From the IMG/VR virus record IMGVR_UViG_3300008050_000401, positions 1 to 21,134 of that record: a DNA stretch of 21,134 nucleotides; one strand, 5' to 3'. The position numbers and the translations under genes are program-made. Under the pieces are notes generated by a model. That model did no database searches and had not been told where the DNA came from. It saw only the letters and a list, made by a program, of their open reading frames with translations. The DNA comes from a virus. Below, piece after piece: positions 1,691 to 17,748 of this stretch. The stretch's first letter is position 1, and every line of letters starts with the position of its first letter.

Positions 1691-2163
1691 TCGTACTCCC
1701 ATCGCACATTTTCTTCAATTCGACGGATAAGTTTACTACTCGCGTCGTTTCTTAACCGGATATCATCCGGTAGAAGAGATAGATCCGTCTGGAAAAATAA
1801 AGCACCAAAACTCTCTACGGCTGTGGAACACATTTTCAGGTGTCCGTTTGAGGAATTTCGTTGCACGGCAATGCTTGTCATCGTCTTCGGTGTCAAAGAT
1901 CCCTGGAAAGTGACCTTTCGATCCTTGTTCTTACATAGGCAGGCTAACAAATACCGATTAGGCTTTCCACCACAAGTGGGTACTTCGAGAAACGTACCTG
2001 AAGCAAGCATGACCTGGAAGTTTGCTTCATGAATCAACTGTTCCACTCGGCGGATATATTTTTGGATGTGTGGGTTCTTTGGGGAAAGTAACAAGGTAGA
2101 AACCCAGGAATGGAACTCAAAAATCTCTCGATCTGTATTGAATACTGAATACTTAATTTGCAT
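1687..2163 (-). CDS. Hypothetical protein (158-164 aa)
   Basis: I do not recognise this protein. Reading from the ATG at 2163 gives 158 residues (MQIKYSVFNTDREIFEFHSW...); an ATG six codons upstream at 2181 is also possible. Neither start has a strong ribosome site, and both overlap the 3' end of the CoaB-like gene, so coupling to it is likely. The middle contains an IHEANFQVMLASGTFLEV segment and a basic, Cys-containing strand (LLACLCKNKDRKVTF). The C-terminus is helical and charged (SKLIRRIEENVRWEYE). A plus-strand frame overlaps it over most of its length but lacks matching gene context. Confidence 0.72.
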   Translation of the reverse strand: MQIKYSVFNTDREIFEFHSWVSTLLLSPKNPHIQKYIRRVEQLIHEANFQVMLASGTFLEVPTCGGKPNRYLLACLCKNKDRKVTFQGSLTPKTMTSIAVQRNSSNGHLKMCSTAVESFGALFFQTDLSLLPDDIRLRNDASSKLIRRIEENVRWEYE

Positions 2164-2893
2164 GGGCGCTGCCTGACTCATCCTGCAATCGAGAAAACAT
2201 CATCTCACACAGATTTCGAACTGCGGATCTTCGATCTTCGAAAGAACAGGGAACCTCTTCCGGTGTCACAATCATGTTAGTCTTGTTCCTAATGTCATTG
2301 GCAAACACCAGATTGGCGCTAGAGTCCCTTAACAATTTAAGACCTCTCAAGTAAGTGTCCTCGGAGGTGGTTCCAGCCGTGGTCTTAAATCCGACCAGGA
2401 AAATGTCTTCTCGTTCACTGCGGATAGTTTGAATCACCTTGTCAGAAGAGGTTAGTTCTAGAAGGTATTCCAATTTCGAGGAGAGTCTTTCCTGTCCTTT
2501 TCCAAATTCTGTTACGCTCTCGGTAACTTCTCCGGTTTCCCCATCCGTAACTTTCAGTTCGCAGGGTTCAAAATCGCAAACGGCGCTGGACAAGACAATC
2601 CCTCTGGTGTCTTCTCGATCCTTCAACAGCCCCAAGAATTTTTCTAAATCCTCGTTGGTTTCCAGGTGCTTGATTCCCAACTGATCAAATAAGGATTGAA
2701 CCCAGGAACACCTGTCGGTTTTTTCTGCCATTCGGGTTTCGACTAGGTGAACTTTGTGCTTGTCAAACGCACACAGGTTTTGTAATTCACCGTAGATTTC
2801 ACGGCCCACGGTACCAAAAGCAGGTGCACACAATGCAAAGTGTGGCGCAATGTGCACTAATGTACCACCAGCGATGACGTAAATTCTCTTCAT
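2153..2893 (-). CDS. CoaB-like phosphopantothenate-cysteine ligase fold protein
   Basis: The product is 246 residues. Two ATGs are adjacent (2896 and 2893); AAGGAG stands six bases before the second, so I use 2893. Counting from the first Met, the protein has the order of features of the DNA/pantothenate metabolism flavoprotein C-terminal (CoaB) domain. These are VIAGGT at 7-12 (family: xTSGGT), LSSAVCDFEP at 102-111 (family: AAAVaDf-x-P), a segment like K-x-K-K...L-x-L near 137-150 (RLSSKLEYLLEL), FLVGFK at 166-171, a Lys at 187 and NLVFANDI at 195-202 (family: D-x-IvAND). CoaB uses CTP to join 4'-phosphopantothenate and cysteine in coenzyme A synthesis. The usual CoaC decarboxylase half is absent. 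The Asn/Ser-rich loop after GGT in the cellular enzyme is replaced here by IAPHFALCAPAFG, and only R/K residues remain of the KxKK flap, so activity is uncertain. The fold is likely; the reaction is inference. Confidence 0.68.
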   Translation of the reverse strand: MKRIYVIAGGTLVHIAPHFALCAPAFGTVGREIYGELQNLCAFDKHKVHLVETRMAEKTDRCSWVQSLFDQLGIKHLETNEDLEKFLGLLKDREDTRGIVLSSAVCDFEPCELKVTDGETGEVTESVTEFGKGQERLSSKLEYLLELTSSDKVIQTIRSEREDIFLVGFKTTAGTTSEDTYLRGLKLLRDSSANLVFANDIRNKTNMIVTPEEVPCSFEDRRSAVRNLCEMMFSRLQDESGSAHAN

Positions 2894-4758: not shown

Positions 4759-5505
4759 GTGAGAACTTTGTGGACTAGATATGAACACGGCACACAACCC
4801 GTGAAAATTTTCCCGTCCGGGGAATTTGAGTATGCCAGAAAAACATTCACTCATCCAAAAGAATTACTCAAGACCATCACTGGCAAAGAAAATACACGTC
4901 TATCATTAGATAGGTACTTTCGAAGTAAAACCCAAAAAGAGGCCAACTCCATCTTCGAAATTTTCTTCGGGAAAGAAAACGAGCCTAAAACCGGGATCGA
5001 TGTCACGAAGAAATATGGTGACATCGAAAGAATCTTTTATGCCGGATTCGGATCGGAGATCGCTCGTGCGGGTCACGATCCCGAGGATGTCCTACAAGAA
5101 ATCTACAAGGGTATTCTTGTTCGTAACAAGGGGAGGTGTCCTTTCGACAAGAAGAAATCTTCTTTCGGTCATTATGTGTACATGGTGTGTCGTTGTATCG
5201 TGAACAATTACCACAAAAAACACCAGAAGAGGATGCAGAAGGAAAAGGCAGGGTTGCCGGAGAATCGGAACCACCCAGAAGTTAAGCCGGACACCTACCA
5301 AGGTGCCGTCGAGAACTTCCTGAGTTTCCTGGCAAAGAAACCGTTGTCTGAAGAAGACCTTCGTCAGATGCGTGTAGTAACTCTACACTTGTCGGCTGGA
5401 AAAACTCAAGAAGAGATTAGCCACGAAGAACAACTTTCTAAATCCCGATTAAAGTCCGTCGTAAAATTACTCCGATCTTACGGTCAGGAATATCGTGGAA
5501 TTTAA
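4759..5505 (+). CDS. Phage-encoded sigma-70-family-like factor
   Basis: The product is 248 residues from a GTG at 4759, with CAGGAG seven bases before it. Residues about 86-158 look like sigma region 2: a helix, then DPEDVLQEIYKGIL (107-120; compare D-x-x-QE-x-F in sigma factors), a linker RNKGRCPFD, then SSFGHYVYMVCRCIVNNYHKK (compare the SFxTWLYxIaxNxxxDxxRR of region 2.3-2.4). After a charged linker, residues 196-245 look like a region 4 helix-turn-helix (LSAGKTQEEISHEEQLSKSRLKSVVKLL). An N-terminal extension of about 85 residues is not recognised. Sigma factors bind RNA polymerase and choose promoters; a phage one usually turns on middle or late genes. It has a host-type promoter upstream. 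The next gene overlaps it or starts just after it. That the structural genes are its target is inference. Confidence 0.77.
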   Translation: MRTLWTRYEHGTQPVKIFPSGEFEYARKTFTHPKELLKTITGKENTRLSLDRYFRSKTQKEANSIFEIFFGKENEPKTGIDVTKKYGDIERIFYAGFGSEIARAGHDPEDVLQEIYKGILVRNKGRCPFDKKKSSFGHYVYMVCRCIVNNYHKKHQKRMQKEKAGLPENRNHPEVKPDTYQGAVENFLSFLAKKPLSEEDLRQMRVVTLHLSAGKTQEEISHEEQLSKSRLKSVVKLLRSYGQEYRGI

Positions 5506-6777: not shown

Positions 6778-7839
6778 ATGAGTCGAGATATACAACTTAC
6801 ACATGCGTGTCCACATTTAATAATTGAGGAAGCGATTTCACTGGGGGCAGATCGCATGTCTTTGGTAAATAAAAATCCCATCGCATCCTCTGGTTCTATC
6901 CGATTATTGGCAAACGACCAATTTCACATCCCCTCCTACGGACTGAGCGTCCCGGCACTTCTAACCGGATCCTTCGCCGGTCCTTTCCGAATCAAAAAAG
7001 CTGAAAATACTCTGACAATTAAAACGCAAGGGGAATCCTTAGACGTGATTCTTCCAGTGGGGAATCGAATCACCACCGCTCAAGTCATCTCTAAAATTAA
7101 ATCAGCGGATCCTAAAACCTTTTCTGCGAGTGAAAAAAACGGCCATCTGCAAGTCAAAGAAGAATCTCTAGTGGGAAGAAGTTCTAGTCTTCAACTCTCA
7201 GGGGTCGTTCGAGATTCATTAGGATTTAAATTACAATTTGGATCTCGGGGTAAGGAAGTATTTCCTCCTTGGGAACTCATCACAACCGCATCCAACAGAC
7301 ATCTACGATTTACGAAGCCCATTCGAACTACCCCGATCATTAAGATGACCTACCAGACCTATCCTCAAACCTGCTTACGATGTCGAGGAACGTTGGTAGA
7401 AAATGACATCCGATTCGATGAGTCGGGGGATGCCCTGTATGTGGAAGATGAAAACCTACTCTACCAAAACAGTCTCAAGATCATCCTTACCGATCTAGGA
7501 TCAAATCTCTATCACACATGGTACGGTTCCAATATTAGGAGACGGATTGGATCCAAGGCAACAAGTACTGTTGCTGCTATGATCAGCGAAGACGTTAGAA
7601 ATGCCCTACAGAACCTACAGGCAACTCAGTTAGAGCAATCCAATTATCAAACGGTAACTTTTAAAGAACGTCTTTACCAAGTGCAATCGGTAGAGACGTT
7701 TCAGAGTGAAGAAGACCCCACGATGTACATCGTAGACGTGGTGGTCAGAAATGCTTCCAATGAGCCTGTAAAAATCACTACCATCTTCACTGTTCCAAGC
7801 GTGATCCCAATTATTCAAGGGAAGCCACTGAGGTTTTAA
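6778..7839 (+). CDS. gp25-like baseplate wedge protein with extra N-terminal domain
   Basis: The product is 353 residues. The ATG at 6778 has a weak GGA eight bases before it. The C-terminal part, from about residue 230, resembles the T4 gp25/GPW-lysozyme-like baseplate family: DLGSNLYHTWYGSNIRRRIG (239-258), followed by a helix (MISEDVRNALQNLQATQLEQ) and a beta hairpin ending in YIVDVVVRNASNEPVKI. gp25 sits in the inner baseplate wedge of contractile tails next to the J-like protein, whose gene comes next. The N-terminal 190 residues are not part of gp25 as usually known; they look beta-rich. A CLRC pair at 199-202 precedes the gp25-like part. The length is well above the roughly 130 aa of T4 gp25. 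The next gene starts immediately after the stop. Confidence 0.8.
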   Translation: MSRDIQLTHACPHLIIEEAISLGADRMSLVNKNPIASSGSIRLLANDQFHIPSYGLSVPALLTGSFAGPFRIKKAENTLTIKTQGESLDVILPVGNRITTAQVISKIKSADPKTFSASEKNGHLQVKEESLVGRSSSLQLSGVVRDSLGFKLQFGSRGKEVFPPWELITTASNRHLRFTKPIRTTPIIKMTYQTYPQTCLRCRGTLVENDIRFDESGDALYVEDENLLYQNSLKIILTDLGSNLYHTWYGSNIRRRIGSKATSTVAAMISEDVRNALQNLQATQLEQSNYQTVTFKERLYQVQSVETFQSEEDPTMYIVDVVVRNASNEPVKITTIFTVPSVIPIIQGKPLRF

Positions 7840-10800
7840 ATGTCTATTCCAACATTCAAAGGTCCAGATGGAATCTATCGAGAGAAATTCATTTTCTCGA
7901 CCACCAAGGAAGCGAACTTCTTCACAGGTAAGATCTCTGCCAACGTTGCAGACTTACAGGTCTCTATTCTAGAGGCGGCATTTACCAGTGACCCGGATCT
8001 CATCATCTGGGATTCCGACACATTCACGATTCCGAACCCCTCTGCATATCCGGAAGGGATCTATCTCCAACCAGGATCAAATCTCATTCAGGTTCGAGCG
8101 ATCACCACGGTCGGAACTATTTCTTCTCCTGGTATGATACAAGCTTCACTAATTCCTCAAAAAGATTCCGGTGTGATCACCGTGCCACCCTCTGCCATCG
8201 CAGTCGAGAAGAAAGATGGAACCGTGAAGATCAAATTTGATGGTCTTACTGACAGTGCTATTCTCGGATACCACTGCTATGCCTCTACAGAAAGTGGGGG
8301 AGGAGCCGGAGGCTACTTTAGAGTTAATGCCGATCTGATTTCCGGAGGGACAACCGAAAATGTCGTTTCGGAATTAGGTACCCTCAGTACCTCTGCTAAT
8401 GTAGTGGTGGACACAGACGGCTCTCTTAAGGAGACTCCTCAATACCTGCATTACAAAAGCACTCAAGAAGATAAGAATTCAGTAATTCTACAAACGGACA
8501 TGTCCGAGTTGGTTTCGATTCCAGAAGGAACTACAAAAATACAAACCGACATCACAGTGTCATCGGTTAGCACGAAACAGAAACTCTCTTTCATACATGA
8601 TAGAAACGGAGATTTCTCTTCTACTCCTTCCACATTACCGAATGGAGATTTTGCAGCGCTTCCCACAGAGGATCCTCTTTTCTATGTAGTGACTTCTGTC
8701 TACTATGATTCCACTTCCGGATTAGAAGTGGAATCCCATTTCTCACCCGAGGTGTCTGGATACCCTCTGAGAATATCTGCAACCATTGGAGGAATTCCCA
8801 CGGTTGGAAGGGCTCAAATCATCCAGGACACTACATTAGCAATTCACCGATCACAAACACAACTAGCGGTGCATGCCGGTTCCTACACCAAAGATGTGAC
8901 TCTGGATCCGTTCTCCTCTGAGGTGGAGAGGTTGCGTTTCATCCTGGACTTCATGCATCAGGCCCAATCGTTCTCCACGCTCCTTAACATTGATGATCCC
9001 TCTGAATCCGGAGACCCCATTCCAGTATCCCAATCCGCTTACAAGTTAGCATTGAAGCAGGCATTTTTCCTTACGGAAAATCAAGAAGTACAAGATCTTA
9101 TCGACATGTCATTCGACCACTTAGCGACAAAGGTCGGGACCACAAGAAAAGCAGGGGTTCGATCAAGAGGAGAGGTGACCTTCTACCTTACAAACACTCC
9201 TAATGTCTCTTTCCCCATCCCCATCGGAACAGGAATTTCCAGTGGAGATGTTCAATTTAGAACCACACAACATGCCGAAATCTCTGTCTCCAATCTCGCA
9301 TCTTTCTACAGCCCTTCTACAGGGAGGTACTCCGTAAAGGCTCTAGTAGAGGCGGAAGACTCAGGCACCTCTGGGAACCTAGCTTCCGGTCAGATTTCTC
9401 AACTTACGAACACCATCGCAGGTCTTTTTGTCATTAATGAAGCGAGAACATTTGGTGGAAAAGACGCAGAGACCAATAGAGAATTAGCAGAAGTCGCTCA
9501 ACGAAAGCTGGCGTCCTTAGATGTGGGAACTACACAAGGATACACGGCAACGGTTTCTGCTCTCCCCGGTGTGGAACAGATTCAGGTGGTTGATTCGAGT
9601 CATGTCCTAATGCAGAGAGACTTTGACGAAGCGACCTCCACACATCGAGGAGGAAAGGTTGATGTCTGGGTGAAAGGGGAAATCCTCTCCCCCACAACGG
9701 AGACATTCGCGTTCTCCTTTGAGATTAAAAAGAACATTCAATTTGTGGTCTCCGGCAGTCCTTCCAATCTAGAATTCGTTGCTGTGGATTCAGATCTTTC
9801 TGCTGCAAACCCCATCATTCAAATGCTCGATATTTCTTCTTGGGGGTACGTTTTCGAAAATGCGTCCACTGGAGAAATATTTAATCTAACGGATGTACAG
9901 ATCACGGACTACAACAAAATTAAGTTGTCCAACACGTACAACAGTGCACAAAACATTCAGGTCACGAATGTATTTTTGGGAGACTATCGTTATCGGAGTA
10001 GTGATAAATTTTACTTCACACAACAACCGATCCGCAGCATCTCCTCTTTTGCGGGATCTGTCACGGGCGAAGTCGATCCGGATGTGTACTCGACGTACCA
10101 ATTAGAAAACCCATTGCGGAATGGCAGGTCCAAACTCGGAAAGAATTTCCTCCAACTAATTGACTCACAAGACAGCACTGAGGTAATTCCATCGGGAACA
10201 CCCATTTCCGTTACGGAAGAATCACATGTAATTCTTCAAACGTACACCGAATTCCTCAACAATTTGGGAATCAACCCTCTGACAATTAAAGTCTATGACT
10301 CCACCCGAACCACATTATACATAAGCCCTCATTCATTAACCGGAACACCCGATTATTCGATCGTCGATGGGAGCACTAACATTCCCATTGGAATTAAAAG
10401 AACTTCTGCCAGCACCATTCCAGACGGTGCGACACTTTCGATTGATTACGATCATGACGAAAATTTCACCGTCTCATACTCGCACAACCTATTAACTAAG
10501 TTGGCACAAGAGGAAGTAGACAAGACTCGACACATCACCGCAGATGTGCTGATCAAAGATTCCATCCCGGTGCCTCTTGACCTGACAATGACAGTGGTCT
10601 TGGACAGGTCATCTGGTGAAAATCAGATTCAACCGGGCGTTGTGGATTCAGAGATTAGAACCAACATTCTCAATCACATTAATGCGTTGGGATTAGGCCG
10701 ACCTCTACGTCAAGCCGACATCATTTCTCTTGTGGACTCCACTGAGAATGTGTCCTACCCTGTGACACCCCTCACGAAAATGACGAGGTCTTCTGGGTCA

Positions 10801-11598
10801 CTCGTTCTGAAAGAGGAACTCACCCTGTCATTGGATTCCGATTACGAAATCCTTAAGGATTGGTCCACTACAACAATTAGTGCCTACCTACTCAAAAGTA
10901 AACTCAAGTACGCCACTTCTACAGGAGGTGGTCCGTCCACGCAATATCGAGGTGTGGATGTAGATGATTTAGACACTCTTCTTATCACTTCATCCCTAAG
11001 TTCATCCGGCTCCCCCCTTAATCAAAAAGAATTGTCTTCTTACATCATTGGAGACTCCGGAATGAGCATTCCAGGGTACACGGATGATGCGACACTGCTA
11101 AGTCAAGCCCCCTACTCCAACAGTGATCAAAACAACCAGTGGGTGCTAGATCAACGGAAAGAACTCACTCAAAATAGGGTGGTCCTTGCCTTAAAGGGTG
11201 GGGTGGATAGCACCACGGCACTACTAAAGAAGTTAACTGACCAAACAGTCACTAACCTAAGTCACCTTCAAATCTTTGAGGACACCATTGTAGTAAAAAG
11301 TAAAGATTTGGTGACCACCTATTCCAAAGACGTGGATTATGTGATCGTTCCAGGGACCACACAAACACCGGCTGGAATTAAAAGAACTGCCGCCAGCACC
11401 ATCGTGAGTGGAACTGAGGTATCCATTGATTACAAATATCGATCGGGTTCGGTAATTGATCTACCTACAAAGTACAAAGTGACTTGTACGTACATCGTAG
11501 CTAGTGACACACAGGCTAGAAATATCTCCACAGGTCCCACCGAATATCTAACGCTGGGTGAATTGGTTCTCTCTTTCGATGAGGATGTGGAATCATGA
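7840..11598 (+). CDS. Large baseplate J-like protein (gp6/gp47 family) with added Ig-type domains
   Basis: The product is 1252 residues, three to four times the usual J protein. The ATG follows the previous stop directly, with TGAGG six bases ahead. Residues about 100-160 look like a fibronectin-type fold (PPSAIAVEKKDGTVKIKFDG...ILGYHCYAS). The J core starts near residue 430 (AGVRSRGEVTFYLT) with GTGISSGDVQFRT and GGKDAETNRELAEVAQRKLA (539-558). A C-terminal J segment comes near 896-975 (VDSEIRTNILNHINALGLG). Two copies of a small domain ending GIKRT-x-ASTI...SIDY occur at about 850-870 and 1178-1198. J proteins form the inner ring of the contractile-tail baseplate. The gene is flanked by gp25-like and I-like genes, the classic order, and its stop overlaps the next start (ATGA). 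Confidence 0.9.
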   Translation: MSIPTFKGPDGIYREKFIFSTTKEANFFTGKISANVADLQVSILEAAFTSDPDLIIWDSDTFTIPNPSAYPEGIYLQPGSNLIQVRAITTVGTISSPGMIQASLIPQKDSGVITVPPSAIAVEKKDGTVKIKFDGLTDSAILGYHCYASTESGGGAGGYFRVNADLISGGTTENVVSELGTLSTSANVVVDTDGSLKETPQYLHYKSTQEDKNSVILQTDMSELVSIPEGTTKIQTDITVSSVSTKQKLSFIHDRNGDFSSTPSTLPNGDFAALPTEDPLFYVVTSVYYDSTSGLEVESHFSPEVSGYPLRISATIGGIPTVGRAQIIQDTTLAIHRSQTQLAVHAGSYTKDVTLDPFSSEVERLRFILDFMHQAQSFSTLLNIDDPSESGDPIPVSQSAYKLALKQAFFLTENQEVQDLIDMSFDHLATKVGTTRKAGVRSRGEVTFYLTNTPNVSFPIPIGTGISSGDVQFRTTQHAEISVSNLASFYSPSTGRYSVKALVEAEDSGTSGNLASGQISQLTNTIAGLFVINEARTFGGKDAETNRELAEVAQRKLASLDVGTTQGYTATVSALPGVEQIQVVDSSHVLMQRDFDEATSTHRGGKVDVWVKGEILSPTTETFAFSFEIKKNIQFVVSGSPSNLEFVAVDSDLSAANPIIQMLDISSWGYVFENASTGEIFNLTDVQITDYNKIKLSNTYNSAQNIQVTNVFLGDYRYRSSDKFYFTQQPIRSISSFAGSVTGEVDPDVYSTYQLENPLRNGRSKLGKNFLQLIDSQDSTEVIPSGTPISVTEESHVILQTYTEFLNNLGINPLTIKVYDSTRTTLYISPHSLTGTPDYSIVDGSTNIPIGIKRTSASTIPDGATLSIDYDHDENFTVSYSHNLLTKLAQEEVDKTRHITADVLIKDSIPVPLDLTMTVVLDRSSGENQIQPGVVDSEIRTNILNHINALGLGRPLRQADIISLVDSTENVSYPVTPLTKMTRSSGSLVLKEELTLSLDSDYEILKDWSTTTISAYLLKSKLKYATSTGGGPSTQYRGVDVDDLDTLLITSSLSSSGSPLNQKELSSYIIGDSGMSIPGYTDDATLLSQAPYSNSDQNNQWVLDQRKELTQNRVVLALKGGVDSTTALLKKLTDQTVTNLSHLQIFEDTIVVKSKDLVTTYSKDVDYVIVPGTTQTPAGIKRTAASTIVSGTEVSIDYKYRSGSVIDLPTKYKVTCTYIVASDTQARNISTGPTEYLTLGELVLSFDEDVES
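10390..10449 (+). repeat. Domain repeat copy 1 within the J-like gene
   Basis: This 60-base block is similar to the block at 11374-11433. The two share GGAATTAAAAGAACT at the start, GCCAGCACCAT in the middle and ATTGATTAC at the end, with identical spacing. It encodes GIKRTSASTIPDGATLSIDY. Confidence 0.85.
11374..11433 (+). repeat. Domain repeat copy 2 within the J-like gene
   Basis: Second copy of the block at 10390-10449, same length. It encodes GIKRTAASTIVSGTEVSIDY. The flanking protein is also similar in layout (a strand with D-Y-x-I/V before it), so a whole small domain was probably duplicated. Confidence 0.85.
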
Positions 11599-12866
11599 GT
11601 ATCAAAAAGGTTTTCCCCACGTCACTGGCACAAAATCCGGCACCCGTTCTAGAGAAGGGTCAGGATTGGAAGGACTCTCATCGAGATCAAGTAGAGAAAA
11701 TAATGGGTGTGTTTTTTGAGGTACTTCCCTCAAACTACTACAGTCAAACAATGGGACCTTCTTACACCCTGCAATTCCAAGCATTAGCAGAACAAATCGC
11801 ATCTGTGCAGTTGTCAGCACAGGAAATCTTCCATGACAACTCTTTCGATTACACCAGATCAGAGTTTCTCTTTCAAATTTTAGGTTTGTTCGTCTTTCCA
11901 GAACCCGAAAAAGGAATTCCAAATATCGACGGTGACATCACGTACCGAGAATTCCTCACGAAGATGATCAATCTGTTACTTCAAGGAAGTACGAAGGCTT
12001 CAGTCGAAGCCGGTGTGAAGTTGGTGGTGACGGGTTCTACCGTGGAAGTGCTTGAGAAATCCATTTTAGGAAGAGACACCGAAAATTCAGATTGGAGTTG
12101 GGATGATCAATTTGAATTTGAAGTTAACATTTCAGGGACATCGTTCCCAACCAATCCCATTGTGACACAACAAAATGTGGATAAGATCCTTCAGGCTCTG
12201 AAACCTAGCCACACCCTCTATCAATATCGACATGTGTTCAACGAGACTTTTTCGTCTCTCTTCACCGCGACACATGATTGGGTGTACGAAGAATTTAAGT
12301 ATGAGGATTATCGAAAATATTGGGGTGGTCTTCAAAAGATTTCAGGGACCACGGGAGAAGTACTCACCGATCGATTCTTCTTCTTGGATACATCTAGAGA
12401 TTTCAGTAACCTATCCATCCCAGGGACACTTACCATCTTATCTGGGGGAAATGCGGGAACGTACAAGATAAGTCAAATTCTCACACTTCCAGTGGGTGAT
12501 GACAGTACTTCTCGATCCTACACCACATCTCCCACAGGACTCACTGGAAAAGTGACAATTGCCAACGGCGTACTGACGGATACGAATCAAAATTTTGTTA
12601 CCGCAATTGAGGGCGAAGTACTCACCATCACGGAAGGACCCAATGTTGGCAGTTACCGACTGAAAACGCTAGTTGGCGGTGGACCTGTTGGATTTACGTC
12701 TGGAACATTTACGCAAGTGCTCTTAGCTCCGTCACTACTTAAGTTGAGTTCTCGAATCCCCACTGTTGCCAGCAGTCAAAGCTACGAGATTACGTTAGAT
12801 CGGTTAGGAGTCAAAACCGCTAAGTCGGTGATTGATGAAGATGTCTCTTTGCAATTCATCCTATGA
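11595..12866 (+). CDS. Tail protein I-like baseplate protein with C-terminal repeat domains
   Basis: The product is 423 residues. It starts by ATGA overlap with the J-like gene. The N-terminal 150 residues have the features of P2 gpI-type proteins: a helical start (DQVEKIMGVFFEVLPSNYY), then a long helix with LQFQALAEQIASVQLSAQEI, then YREFLTKMINLLLQG (117-131) and STKASVEAGVKLV. gpI-type proteins follow J in the baseplate and help attach the fibres; position here is the same. From about residue 275 the protein carries two short repeats, LTILSGGNAGTYKI and LTITEGPNVGSYRL (around 279 and 342), also found in the next gene, so these may be adaptor domains shared with the fibre. The exact family is inferred from position and from the N-terminal pattern. 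Confidence 0.72.
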   Translation: MSIKKVFPTSLAQNPAPVLEKGQDWKDSHRDQVEKIMGVFFEVLPSNYYSQTMGPSYTLQFQALAEQIASVQLSAQEIFHDNSFDYTRSEFLFQILGLFVFPEPEKGIPNIDGDITYREFLTKMINLLLQGSTKASVEAGVKLVVTGSTVEVLEKSILGRDTENSDWSWDDQFEFEVNISGTSFPTNPIVTQQNVDKILQALKPSHTLYQYRHVFNETFSSLFTATHDWVYEEFKYEDYRKYWGGLQKISGTTGEVLTDRFFFLDTSRDFSNLSIPGTLTILSGGNAGTYKISQILTLPVGDDSTSRSYTTSPTGLTGKVTIANGVLTDTNQNFVTAIEGEVLTITEGPNVGSYRLKTLVGGGPVGFTSGTFTQVLLAPSLLKLSSRIPTVASSQSYEITLDRLGVKTAKSVIDEDVSLQFIL

Positions 12867-12876
12867 GAGATAAAAA

Positions 12877-15800
12877 ATGAGTTTTGGTGTTTATCCATAC
12901 GGTGTTGGTCCCTACGGAACTAGTGAAGACGTCCTTCCTACATTTACGATTCTCAGTATCTCCGGGACGGTTTTTCGAGTCACCTATTCAGAGGAAATGG
13001 TGAACAATGCGTCACTGCTCCTAGCCGCCAACTATGTAGTCACCACACTTCACGGCGTGGCTCTCACACCCAGTGCGGTCGTGGTGCAGGATTCTAATAT
13101 CACGGGTGTTCTTTCCGTAGATGTCACACACTCCGGATCGACCCTGGCTGGGAAATACAATCTCCGTGTGATGAACGCTCAAACAGTTGGAGGATATACC
13201 TTTGACGTCCTGGCAGACACGGCTGACTTCTTGACCCGAGGAGACGCACCGTCATTTGAAGTCGCGGCTCCCACAGGAAATACCGTGGTGGTAACGTATC
13301 ACCAACCCATGTTGCCGGAAGCCACCTACACCCCAGGTCTTGGAGATCTTTCCACTTATGACATCACCCTGAATGGAGTTTCTTATCCGGTAGTCCCGAC
13401 CATTCAAAGTGTAGCAGAAAACTCAACCTCTCAAGTGACCTTGAATGTTCAGGGGATGACGTCTCTCTCCTACCAGATGGAAATCTCACCCTCGGATGCT
13501 TTCTTGTACGACGGATCTCTTCTCCCGTCTGCCAGTGCCGGATTTACTGGGACTGAGGTGGGTACTGGGACTTCTCAAATCGCCTCTGGAAAGTTAGTCC
13601 TCTCTAAAATGTTAGGTGACTCTTACGGTTGGTCTTTTCAGGACACCTCTGGAAACGTCACTTCTAGTTCCACATTCCAAACTGACATTTGGATTGAGTC
13701 ACCCGGAGTGGATTTCCTAACTCCATTTGGAAATGACATCGCATATACCTTTTCGTTCTCCAATGGGGACAAACAAGTTGATGTGAATTTCATGCACGTC
13801 AGCGGCAACCCCACTATTCAATTCCTAAGCGGTACTGCAAACGAGTCCGTAGAGCTAGATTGGACACAGGGAGAAAATAAAATATCCCTTCTTCGAAATG
13901 GGAAGGGTCTTTTTTATGCTCTCCTCTGGAATGACATTCCGACACTGTCTATTGCTGCTGCCAGTGTGACAAAAAATGCAGAGATCTTAGGTGGCTCCCC
14001 AGGGGCACAAGTCTTACTGTCTTCTAACTACCAAGTTTCAAACTTCAAAATCAATGCTCTGAACGTTCGATCAACGCAGACGGCGTTCTCTGCGACCTGG
14101 AATTACTTGCACGGTTCCACGTTTGTGTTCAATGGAAGCGCCGCTCTCGCAAACGACACCATCAATACTCAGTACGGACCTCTCACCAAAGGTTGGGGCG
14201 ATTCTACCCCGGCAACTAAAAACGATGTCACCGTCACCCTAAATGGAACGCCGGTGACCATCTCCAACGTTAATCCGTACATGGGTCTAATTACATTAGC
14301 GACTCCCATTCCCTATGCCGCTTCTGGAATTAATAATGTCCTTGTTGATTATTCCTGGATGGAAAATCCAACACTTCCAATGGAGAAACTCAATACTAAG
14401 GGATTGGTGTTGAATCAGCGAGGAGATTCAACACACACCAGATTCCCATTTAGTTTAGCGTTGTTGAACAAACCCAGAAAGCAACCGAAGAGATTTGGTT
14501 ATCAACACCTGGGTTTTCACAAGAAATACACGGCAAGTTTAAACAGACCCACCACACTAAAACTTAATCGGAACCCACACCATCCCTCAGTAGAAGACTT
14601 AGAATCCGCCTCAAAAGACTTCAACCTGTCTTACAATGGAGAAGTAACACCCACACTAGCATCGCCACCTTGGGTGTTAACAGGAGCAGACGCAGGAAAA
14701 GTTCTAACAGGTAACAAGTCCTATCAATTGATAGACAACAGTGCGCTGACGTTGCCCACAGGCACCTCTTCCGTCTACACACAAAATTTGAATCTGAATT
14801 ACAACAATGACATCCACCTATCTACCCGAATAGCGCTCACCTCGTACACACTAGATGGAGTCTTCACGGGAATTGGATTTGGGATCCACAACCAAAATCA
14901 CATCTGTCTTGTTGGGATGTTGGAAATCAACAGTCTGAAACATGTGGGTCTACTCAAAACACCTGGGAATTTCTTCGACGTGAACTCATGGGATGTGTTG
15001 GCTTCTCCAGTAGGGGAAATTCTAGAGGCTAACAAGATCTCATTCACGACTTCAGATCTCCCAAAGGGATTGCTTGCCGATTTAAAATTCCAGATTCTCT
15101 CTGGAACTCAGGCGGGAACATACACCATTAAATCAGTGACCGATTTCTCTTCTGGGGTGACACACATTGTCACCAAGGAGAACTTTCCGGCAGACTTTAA
15201 ACTCTACGGCAACGACAAACCAAAAGCATCTTTTCAAATTGATTGGTCTGTTTTAACCTCGTATCGAATCTTTGCACAATTCCATCGGAATGTTTTCCAA
15301 GTGTTTTTGGGAGGCTCTATTTACGGTCTCATTTCGTCAACGACTCCAAGTCTACCATCCCCTACAAACACACACCTTCAATTATCGCAGGATAAAGATC
15401 AAATCTTTTGGGGATCTTTTAGCCGGAAGTCCACCAATACTTCAGAATGGGATTTTTTCAGAGTCGGCACTACCTCTCCATTGGTGAAGAAGCACACTCA
15501 GTACTCTTCCATTTCTTTGGAGATGGATTCCCTACCAGAAACGAACTCCTGGTCACTGACCAATCAGTACGGTTATGTCCGAATCAAGAATAACCAACTT
15601 TTGTTAAAGTCCAACCAATCCTCCACGGTGTTTGATACCTCATATGGTTATTTTCGAGATGAGGAGTTTCTAAATCCTAGAACACATTTCAATGTGGAAA
15701 CACTCCTTCAACAAGACTTTGGGGTTTCTACTTCTGGAGACACACAGATTCAAGTTCTCGACGGGGTCAAAGAAGTCACCTGTTCGACTCTAATGTACTT

Positions 15801-17748
15801 AGAAGGTGGCTCTCCTCACCGTAAATTAATAGAGCTACCCTCTATCTCTTCCACTATGATTCAATCCCCGACACAAGACGGTTGGGTGGAAACAAACTCC
15901 AGCGCTACTTCGGCAATCTTTCAAAAAGAATTGCACTTAACGCAAACTCTCAAAACATCCATTCATTACACAAAAGATTTAAGTCCCACTTCCCCTCCTT
16001 TTGCAGATGAAGGAAAAAGAGTCATTGAAGCGAGGTTGAAGATCACCTCCTGGACAAAGAATGGAACAGATCTAATCGGTCCATTCTTTGGAGCCGACGT
16101 TGGAAATAATCCTCAAAGTGGTGGTGGAGATCCACGAAGAGTCACCTTGTCTTTTAAAGACTCTTCGCCAGCAAGGGTCAGCTTCGTGGATATCGACGAC
16201 GGATTGAGCGGATATGCTCCAATCCAAGATTACGATTTTGATTGGACAGACAAAAAACAACACACTTATCGAATCACTGCCGATGAAGTTGCGGGAACAG
16301 TGACACTGGTAATTGATGATGTGGTCCAAACACCCTCAGTGAGTCTGTCCAATTTTCCTCAGACTGAAAAAAACACCCGAGCATACTTTGGTTCTATCCT
16401 GATAGACACCCTTTCCACTTCGGTGTGGGAATCTTTCTCGGTGTTCTGGGATGCTTCCACCTCAGTAAAGAGAACTCTTGGAGTTTACCTGGGTGGAGAT
16501 CGAACAGACATCAACAGTTGGGAAATCCCTCGAACGGATGCCACAACAGAAAAGAATGAAACGGCTTCTGCCGTGGTGCAAGAGATGGATTGGAGAAGTC
16601 CTCTTCATGTCCGAATACACCGGGATCCCGATTGGGGAGTCACCGTATTTCGTCCCGACATGGCACTCCCGCCCTATTTCACAGGATCCTATGCCACAGA
16701 ACACACAAGTCCTTCAGCAGGGTGGATTAACGTAGAGACTCAAAAGCTACCCCAAAAGATAAAGACACACGGAAGTGTCTCTTTCGGTTCGATGCAAAGT
16801 TCTAGCATCGTTCAACAGAGGTGGGATTATTTTCGATATCAAATTTTCCGAAATTCCCCTCCGAATTTTGAATCTCCTCACCACATGGTGCTCAACCAGC
16901 ACCACAGTATTTCCAGCGCCGGATTTCTTAAAGATAAGACCGTAGAAGTTGTCGCTTTGACCAGCATCTCTTCTACAAATGTTTCCCTCATCCCAACTCA
17001 GATTAATGCGTCACATATTTACAAGATCGTGGATGGAGTCACCACGTTCACAGAAAATCAGTTAGTCTTCAATCCCAAAACCCAAGTCATCAGTCTGAAA
17101 GAAGGACTGAAGTTCTCCAACACCCTTGCTTCAGTTACGGTTCATTTTGTTGTTGGAAGACCTATCACAGAAACTTATCTCAAAGCGCAGCCTTTTGAAG
17201 AGATCTACACACTCCTTAATGAGGGAACTCCGCCTTTTGAAAAAGGTTTAGCAGACGGGCACACAAAAGAAGTGCAATCGGGTTCCCAACTTAATTATCC
17301 TCTGCATGCGTTGAACAACCACCAATCTTTGATTTTGAATGACCCACACAATCGAATTGTCTTTAAAGACCCTGCAACGGCACTTCTGGATTGTTTGGAG
17401 ATTTTCGAAAGCAACAATGGCGATACAGAAGGTCTTCTGTCATTCTTTTCGGATGAGACTTCTCCGATACAAGGTCTTCAAGAATTTGCCCTGCAAGGCG
17501 ACCAATTCACCGAATTACAAATGCCTGCCGGTCTGGTCCCACCTCTTTCCTCCTACCAAACTCTTTCGTTGAGCGGGGGTTCATATCCCGCGTTGGGTGG
17601 TGTCTTGGGACCAGTAGCCACTAAAAATTCTCCTCTCCTAACACCGAATCAAAATGGAAGCGGTGGTACTATGGGATTGAATCAACAAATGAGACTCCGT
17701 CTGGTGGATTCGGCTACCGGGGTACTCTTGCAAAAACTAGACCTTTAA
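12877..17748 (+). CDS. Large tail fibre / adhesin-like protein with repeated lectin-like domains
   Basis: The product is 1623 residues, starting ten bases after the previous stop with a weak GAGA site. The N-terminus reads GVYPYGVGPYGTSE, a short Tyr/Gly leader I associate with phage tail proteins. Residues about 22-230 hold two Ig-like (SwmB/SbsA-type) domains (FRVTYSEEMVNNASLLLAAN and VVVTYHQPMLPEATY). A basic linker follows near 530-560. The rest contains at least three jelly-roll (LamG/concanavalin-like) domains, each ending in a similar strand pair: FWGSFSRKSTNTSEWDFF near 843, YFGSILIDTLSTSVWESF near 1170 and SFGSMQSSSIVQQRWDYF near 1300. Such domains bind sugars or proteins, so this is the best candidate for host recognition. 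The C-terminus (after 1500) is Gly/Ser/Leu-rich. No intramolecular chaperone or peptidase is seen. Confidence 0.8.
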   Translation: MSFGVYPYGVGPYGTSEDVLPTFTILSISGTVFRVTYSEEMVNNASLLLAANYVVTTLHGVALTPSAVVVQDSNITGVLSVDVTHSGSTLAGKYNLRVMNAQTVGGYTFDVLADTADFLTRGDAPSFEVAAPTGNTVVVTYHQPMLPEATYTPGLGDLSTYDITLNGVSYPVVPTIQSVAENSTSQVTLNVQGMTSLSYQMEISPSDAFLYDGSLLPSASAGFTGTEVGTGTSQIASGKLVLSKMLGDSYGWSFQDTSGNVTSSSTFQTDIWIESPGVDFLTPFGNDIAYTFSFSNGDKQVDVNFMHVSGNPTIQFLSGTANESVELDWTQGENKISLLRNGKGLFYALLWNDIPTLSIAAASVTKNAEILGGSPGAQVLLSSNYQVSNFKINALNVRSTQTAFSATWNYLHGSTFVFNGSAALANDTINTQYGPLTKGWGDSTPATKNDVTVTLNGTPVTISNVNPYMGLITLATPIPYAASGINNVLVDYSWMENPTLPMEKLNTKGLVLNQRGDSTHTRFPFSLALLNKPRKQPKRFGYQHLGFHKKYTASLNRPTTLKLNRNPHHPSVEDLESASKDFNLSYNGEVTPTLASPPWVLTGADAGKVLTGNKSYQLIDNSALTLPTGTSSVYTQNLNLNYNNDIHLSTRIALTSYTLDGVFTGIGFGIHNQNHICLVGMLEINSLKHVGLLKTPGNFFDVNSWDVLASPVGEILEANKISFTTSDLPKGLLADLKFQILSGTQAGTYTIKSVTDFSSGVTHIVTKENFPADFKLYGNDKPKASFQIDWSVLTSYRIFAQFHRNVFQVFLGGSIYGLISSTTPSLPSPTNTHLQLSQDKDQIFWGSFSRKSTNTSEWDFFRVGTTSPLVKKHTQYSSISLEMDSLPETNSWSLTNQYGYVRIKNNQLLLKSNQSSTVFDTSYGYFRDEEFLNPRTHFNVETLLQQDFGVSTSGDTQIQVLDGVKEVTCSTLMYLEGGSPHRKLIELPSISSTMIQSPTQDGWVETNSSATSAIFQKELHLTQTLKTSIHYTKDLSPTSPPFADEGKRVIEARLKITSWTKNGTDLIGPFFGADVGNNPQSGGGDPRRVTLSFKDSSPARVSFVDIDDGLSGYAPIQDYDFDWTDKKQHTYRITADEVAGTVTLVIDDVVQTPSVSLSNFPQTEKNTRAYFGSILIDTLSTSVWESFSVFWDASTSVKRTLGVYLGGDRTDINSWEIPRTDATTEKNETASAVVQEMDWRSPLHVRIHRDPDWGVTVFRPDMALPPYFTGSYATEHTSPSAGWINVETQKLPQKIKTHGSVSFGSMQSSSIVQQRWDYFRYQIFRNSPPNFESPHHMVLNQHHSISSAGFLKDKTVEVVALTSISSTNVSLIPTQINASHIYKIVDGVTTFTENQLVFNPKTQVISLKEGLKFSNTLASVTVHFVVGRPITETYLKAQPFEEIYTLLNEGTPPFEKGLADGHTKEVQSGSQLNYPLHALNNHQSLILNDPHNRIVFKDPATALLDCLEIFESNNGDTEGLLSFFSDETSPIQGLQEFALQGDQFTELQMPAGLVPPLSSYQTLSLSGGSYPALGGVLGPVATKNSPLLTPNQNGSGGTMGLNQQMRLRLVDSATGVLLQKLDL

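Follow-up and report, generated by a model that had tools for sequence, protein, structure and literature searches.

The closest described relatives of the phage protein analyzed here are cellular phosphopantothenate-cysteine ligases, which occur as the CoaB half of bacterial CoaBC (TIGR00521; PDB 1u7z and 6th2) and as stand-alone, type III CoaB in Streptococcus (2gk4; TIGR02114 and NF005231). In M. smegmatis CoaB, R207 (R206 in Escherichia coli CoaB) is critical for the second half reaction, in which the acyl-CMP intermediate is converted, and probably binds cysteine; D281 (E. coli D279) holds the metal, and lysines touch the CTP phosphates (PMC7794376). Two further systems bear on the phage relatives: the class II aldolase/adducin superfamily (PF00596; MtnB, AraD) and phage NAD+ salvage by NadV and NadM. 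At least one NAD-network gene is present in 85% of jumbo phages. NadV is found in 33% of jumbo and 22% of medium phages, and ADP-ribosylglycohydrolase in only about 5% of jumbo phages (PMC9503650).

Gene and operon

The window (the whole stretch of DNA analyzed, 21,134 nucleotides) is a 21-kb virus fragment. Its plus strand carries a baseplate-wedge-like gene (6778–7839) and a baseplate J gene (7840–11598), which identifies the source as a tailed phage whose baseplate is of the contractile type. The CoaB-like gene lies on the minus strand (2896–2153) and encodes 247 amino acids. The open reading frame that the first-pass annotation placed at 2153–2893 is real, with one correction: 2893 is the second of two consecutive ATGs, the first being at 2896. 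Immediately upstream of the start is AGAAGGAG. The gene is part of a tight minus-strand operon in which a 5'-3' exonuclease (4213–3311; PF02739, 2.6e-22) is followed by a 132-aa gene with no assigned function (3310–2912), the CoaB-like gene and four small genes, likewise with no assigned function, whose ends overlap (2181–550). The first of these four (2181–1687, 164 aa) overlaps the CoaB-like gene by 29 bases.

Divergent from this operon, a plus-strand gene (4759–5505) encodes a protein of 248 aa that weakly resembles sigma factors (phrog_1740, 0.0016) and is possibly a regulator. The plus-strand gene at 12877–17748, after the baseplate genes, encodes a 1623-aa protein that had zero PHROG matches and is probably a tail fibre or adhesin.

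CoaB fold

Profile searches and a structure prediction agree on the fold. PF04127 matched the window protein with E=4.6e-7 and 30.3 bits, above its curated cut-off of 22, and the best NCBIfam matches were the stand-alone CoaB models (2e-12 and 5e-10). A profile of the phage family matched Streptococcus CoaB 2gk4, the nearest enzyme by profile as well as by fold, with E=7.6e-17, and with 66 cellular CoaB sequences as the target, HHalign gave the family a probability of 98.9%. An AlphaFold2 model made from an alignment of 41 relatives had a pLDDT of 95.2 and a pTM of 0.90. CoaB/PPCS structures fill all 50 best Foldseek matches of this model in the PDB, led by 2gk4 (1.3e-14) and followed by M. 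smegmatis CoaB with CTP and E. coli CoaB with 4'-phosphopantothenoyl-CMP. A fold search of BFVD, which may not contain these phages, returned 0 matches. The predicted structure has a Rossmann-like core, and together with the profile matches it confirms the CoaB fold. The first-pass annotation had proposed this fold from the motifs GGT, SSAVCDFEP, VGFKTTAG and FANDI, all of which are present. It had named in advance the lack of a CoaB core or of a PF04127 match as evidence against its proposal; we examined both, and neither occurred.

Active-site residues

To see which parts of the active site are retained, we compared 41 family members with the 66 cellular CoaB sequences, using E. coli CoaB numbering. 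D203, R206, N210, D279, K289 and N353 are invariant in all 66 cellular sequences. R206 is found in 0 of 41 family members (Leu in 40, Phe in the window protein), as is N210 (Ala in 39, Thr in 2), and the D203 position holds Arg, Ala, Ser or Lys. In the window protein, the GGT loop and the rewired substrate loop read GGTLVHIAPHFALCAPAFG (residues 9–27 counted from the second Met; minus strand, 2869–2813), where F19 occupies the R206 site and A23 the N210 site. H18, beside the lost Arg, is invariant in the family. The first-pass annotation was right that the Asn-containing substrate loop has been replaced after GGT, and this replacement extends to the whole family.

Other parts of the site are kept. 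The metal-coordinating D279 is Asp in 41 of 41 members, corresponding to D107 within SSAVCDFE (residues 102–109; 2590–2567), and the GGT loop and the AND motif are retained, the latter as Asn199-Asp200 in FANDIRNKTNM (residues 197–207; 2305–2273). The K-x-K-K flap has become R-L-x-x in all 41, with one surviving basic residue; in the window protein the flap is RLSS (residues 136–139; 2488–2477), and its family-invariant R136 was aligned to K291 by MAFFT and to K289 by HHalign. Besides His18, the invariants specific to the family are Thr171-Thr172 and Asn206; the Thr pair lies in GFKTT (residues 168–172; 2392–2378) next to a type III-like Lys170, and Asn206 in the FANDIRNKTNM stretch. The family also has a Lys at the K152 position, as does type III CoaB. 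Together GFK, Lys152 and an RLSS flap in place of KISS bear out the suggestion that the protein resembles stand-alone CoaB. On the simplest reading of these alignments, nucleotide and metal handling would be kept and the acid and acceptor side rewired.

The first-pass annotation offered two functions, the first being that the phage boosts coenzyme A or 4'-phosphopantetheine supply, in which case the protein would be a genuine, though divergent, phosphopantothenate-cysteine ligase at work during infection. The fold, the PF04127 score and the mostly conserved nucleotide and metal residues would suit such an enzyme, and the NAD salvage genes near its relatives could suit a general cofactor-supply module. 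The loss of both R206 and N210 in every family member speaks against it, as do scores far below the NCBIfam equivalog cut-offs (47.5 bits against 265 for NF005231 and 39.5 against 217 for TIGR02114). CoaC (PF02441) was found in 0 of 18 related phage records, against 14 of 14 controls; the window's own genome is incomplete. Aureispira and Novimethylophilus, the cellular carriers of the family, each also keep canonical CoaBC. Since CoaC was found in none of the 18 phage records and the cellular carriers have their own CoaBC, a role in coenzyme A supply is disfavoured, and we consider it improbable. For annotators, a PF04127 match in a phage need not signal coenzyme A synthesis.

The phage family and its fusion partner

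The window protein belongs to PHROG family phrog_35624 (2.6e-26; 4.5e-128 for the phiPsa374 protein). Used as a single query, the window protein found 0 relatives among viral contigs; an alignment as query found 51 loci. Members occur in the 595-kb huge phage LR756511, Caulobacter jumbo phages, Otagovirus and the 51 viral contigs, which are up to 533 kb long. Annotated phage copies, for example in phiPsa374 and CcrBL9, are named hypothetical. Among 296 Bacteroidota and 299 Pseudomonadota genomes, the phage-type protein was found in two seed genomes only, and four further matches were canonical CoaBC. In two Aureispira genomes (L070 and L072) the stand-alone gene has the same chromosomal neighbourhood, which looks like a lasting cellular capture. 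Two sets of candidates were rejected: Bacteroidota matches of about 410 aa, considered as cellular relatives of the fusion described below, are canonical CoaBC in a panC-coaX-panD setting, and a Methanothermobacter psiM100 match is a host gene flanking a prophage. The family is described in none of the open-licence papers found by our literature search. Among the records and papers searched it is undescribed.

In most contigs the protein is 400–450 aa long and has a C-terminal class II aldolase-like domain. The 29 fused members matched Aldolase_II in 27 cases and DFP in 22 (E<0.01). The aldolase-like domain keeps the HxH motif, a third His, a Glu and two Cys; H337, H339 and H387 are present in 29 of 29 and E359 in 28 of 29. 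Its solved or named relatives are MtnB- and AraD-like, all weak. With the two-domain protein as Foldseek query, the matches listed were taken up by CoaB structures. The fusion turned up in none of the annotated records and papers that we searched.

The N-terminal domain stands alone in the window copy, Otagovirus and the Caulobacter jumbo phages. Neither the window protein nor any of the window's six reading frames contains the aldolase-like domain, and a split-off copy elsewhere in the window was accordingly rejected. A phylogenetic tree sets the whole family apart from CoaB with support of 100/99. The stand-alone forms of Otagovirus, Caulobacter phages, Aureispira and Novimethylophilus form one weakly supported group. 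The window protein falls among the fused forms, on a long branch with weak support, suggesting that it lost the second domain independently.

The chemistry of class II aldolases runs via an enediolate, which phosphopantothenoylcysteine cannot form. We therefore dropped the idea that the aldolase-like domain substitutes for CoaC. In three similar contigs (L057, 10001–11234, and L058 and L059) the CoaB-aldolase gene is split into several frames, with NadM-like and NadV genes downstream; the broken frames may reflect decay or assembly errors.

Gene neighbours

NadV-type NAPRTase is encoded in 20 of 30 related records and in all 12 records longer than 250 kb, although several of these 12 genomes are close relatives, which weakens the statistics. 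NadV lies within 4 kb of the family gene in five cases, against a null mean of 0.94 (P=0.0018), under a simple placement model that assumes fragments to come from 250-kb genomes. In contig L021 three genes are contiguous: CoaB-aldolase (9986–11302), NadM-Nudix (11354–12304) and NadV (12330–13730). The 21-kb window, too short to speak for its own genome in this respect, shows no NAD gene, and NadV is not adjacent to the Otagovirus and Caulobacter copies.

The association with NAD genes could reflect genome size and shared ancestry only, in which case the re-tooled CoaB-fold enzyme would make a different modified nucleotide or metabolite. Large phages often carry NAD-network genes (85% of jumbo phages; PMC9503650), just 5 of the 20 NadV genes are nearby, and a different gene, M23-like, is a recurrent neighbour. 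A NadV share of only 33% in jumbo phages, the proximity statistic and the contiguous genes of L021 weigh on the other side, and we give this explanation a lesser but appreciable chance.

Several stand-alone copies are followed by the M23-like gene, either directly or after one intervening gene (L006, 8591–9268; L047, 10624–11316; L071, 9472–10029). The usual HxH motif apparently has another residue in place of its first His in L006 and L071 (SMLHLE), so these proteins may not be peptidases. In the Novimethylophilus locus L071 (8612–10029), a semialdehyde dehydrogenase-like gene (PF22698, 6e-17) lies between the CoaB-like gene and the M23-like gene and overlaps both; the three are possibly a biosynthetic set.

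Other neighbours are related to ADP-ribose and nucleosides. In Otagovirus, a gene for DUF4326, a domain predicted to process ADP-ribose derivatives, is immediately upstream of the CoaB-like gene (7693–8001 in phiPsa374, locus L007; 3693–4001 in L011). An ADP-ribosylglycohydrolase gene is within a few kb of CoaB-aldolase in five loci (L018, L027, L028, L061 and L033), and a nucleoside deoxyribosyltransferase-like gene adjoins the family gene in LR756511. All three would fit a protein that has no ligase chemistry and binds nucleotides or ADP-ribose as a sink or signal processor, in counter-defence against nucleotide-based immunity. The metal Asp, the basic flap residue and many polar residues, all of them invariant, and the zinc-lyase-type residue set of the fused domain point instead to catalysis, and PADLOC models gave no match. 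We regard a sink or signal processor as unlikely.

Proposed function

The other function offered by the first-pass annotation was reuse of the fold on different substrates, and this we favour over coenzyme A supply, with substrate and reaction being what we infer. At roughly even odds (about 0.5), the protein is a neofunctionalized, acid-activating CoaB-fold enzyme that takes part in the phage NAD+/nucleotide network with a new substrate. Such an enzyme would be related to a stand-alone, type III-like CoaB and would still bind a nucleoside triphosphate, presumably CTP given its ancestry. It would activate an acid, probably phosphorylated, as an acyl-nucleotide and transfer it to an acceptor that is not cysteine. 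Further processing of the acid or the product would fall, in most phages, to the fused zinc class II aldolase-like domain; the window protein would provide the first domain only. The pathway is more likely to be phage NAD+, ADP-ribose or nucleotide metabolism than coenzyme A synthesis because of the co-occurrence with NadV and NadM.

A narrower version of this proposal is tentative, with the odds against it: the CoaB-fold domain, usually fused to the zinc class II aldolase-like domain, could be a new type of enzyme in phage NAD+ reconstitution. Faced with a host that defends itself by depleting NAD+, the phage would use it to make or repair an NAD precursor, or to recycle ADP-ribose. Known NAD salvage, as far as we are aware, offers no obvious role for the fused zinc domain. 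One specific step would use an NTP to amidate a phosphorylated pyridine acid; NaMN, for example, would yield NMN for the phage NadM. NaMN resembles phosphopantothenate in having both a phosphate and a carboxylate, and the idea would suit the L021 operon with NadM and NadV and the presence of NadV in 12 of 12 large records. This step is proposed purely from chemistry, however; it leaves the aldolase-like domain unexplained and would supply NMN that NadV already provides. We think it very improbable.

On the favoured reading of a re-tooled, acid-activating enzyme, a core cofactor-enzyme fold would have been recruited and rewired across dozens of large phages, mostly in two-domain form. Phage NAD+ metabolism is central to counter-defence, and the link in phage genomes to NadV and NadM marks this enzyme as a candidate for a missing part of that metabolism. 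Isolated phages (phiPsa374 and CcrBL9) carry the gene, so the proposal is testable now.

Comparison with known systems

The family shares with Streptococcus type III CoaB its fold, core length, GFK and Lys at the K152 position, and both depart from K-x-K-K at the flap (KISS in Streptococcus, RLSS here). Streptococcus CoaB keeps the equivalents of R206 and N210, whereas the family has lost both and adds the invariant His18, Thr171-Thr172 and Asn206; identity is about 21%. With the CoaB half of bacterial CoaBC, the family has in common the Rossmann-like core, the metal Asp, the GGT/GPT loop and AND, but it has no CoaC half, its flap is R-L-x-x, and D203, R206 and N210 are lost. PHROG phrog_35624 is the same family; its entry lists the function as unknown and is silent on both the relation to CoaB and the fusion to an aldolase. 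Fused relatives, unlike the window protein, carry a C-terminal domain that shares the HxH, third His, Glu and KPS motif of class II aldolases; its similarity to any one named enzyme is only weak, and it has an extra invariant Cys pair (C360 and C365 in L037). Phage NAD+ salvage by NadV and NadM is a neighbour in several phages, and NadV is present in all large records tested, but the CoaB-like protein is not among the described members of that pathway (PMC9503650).
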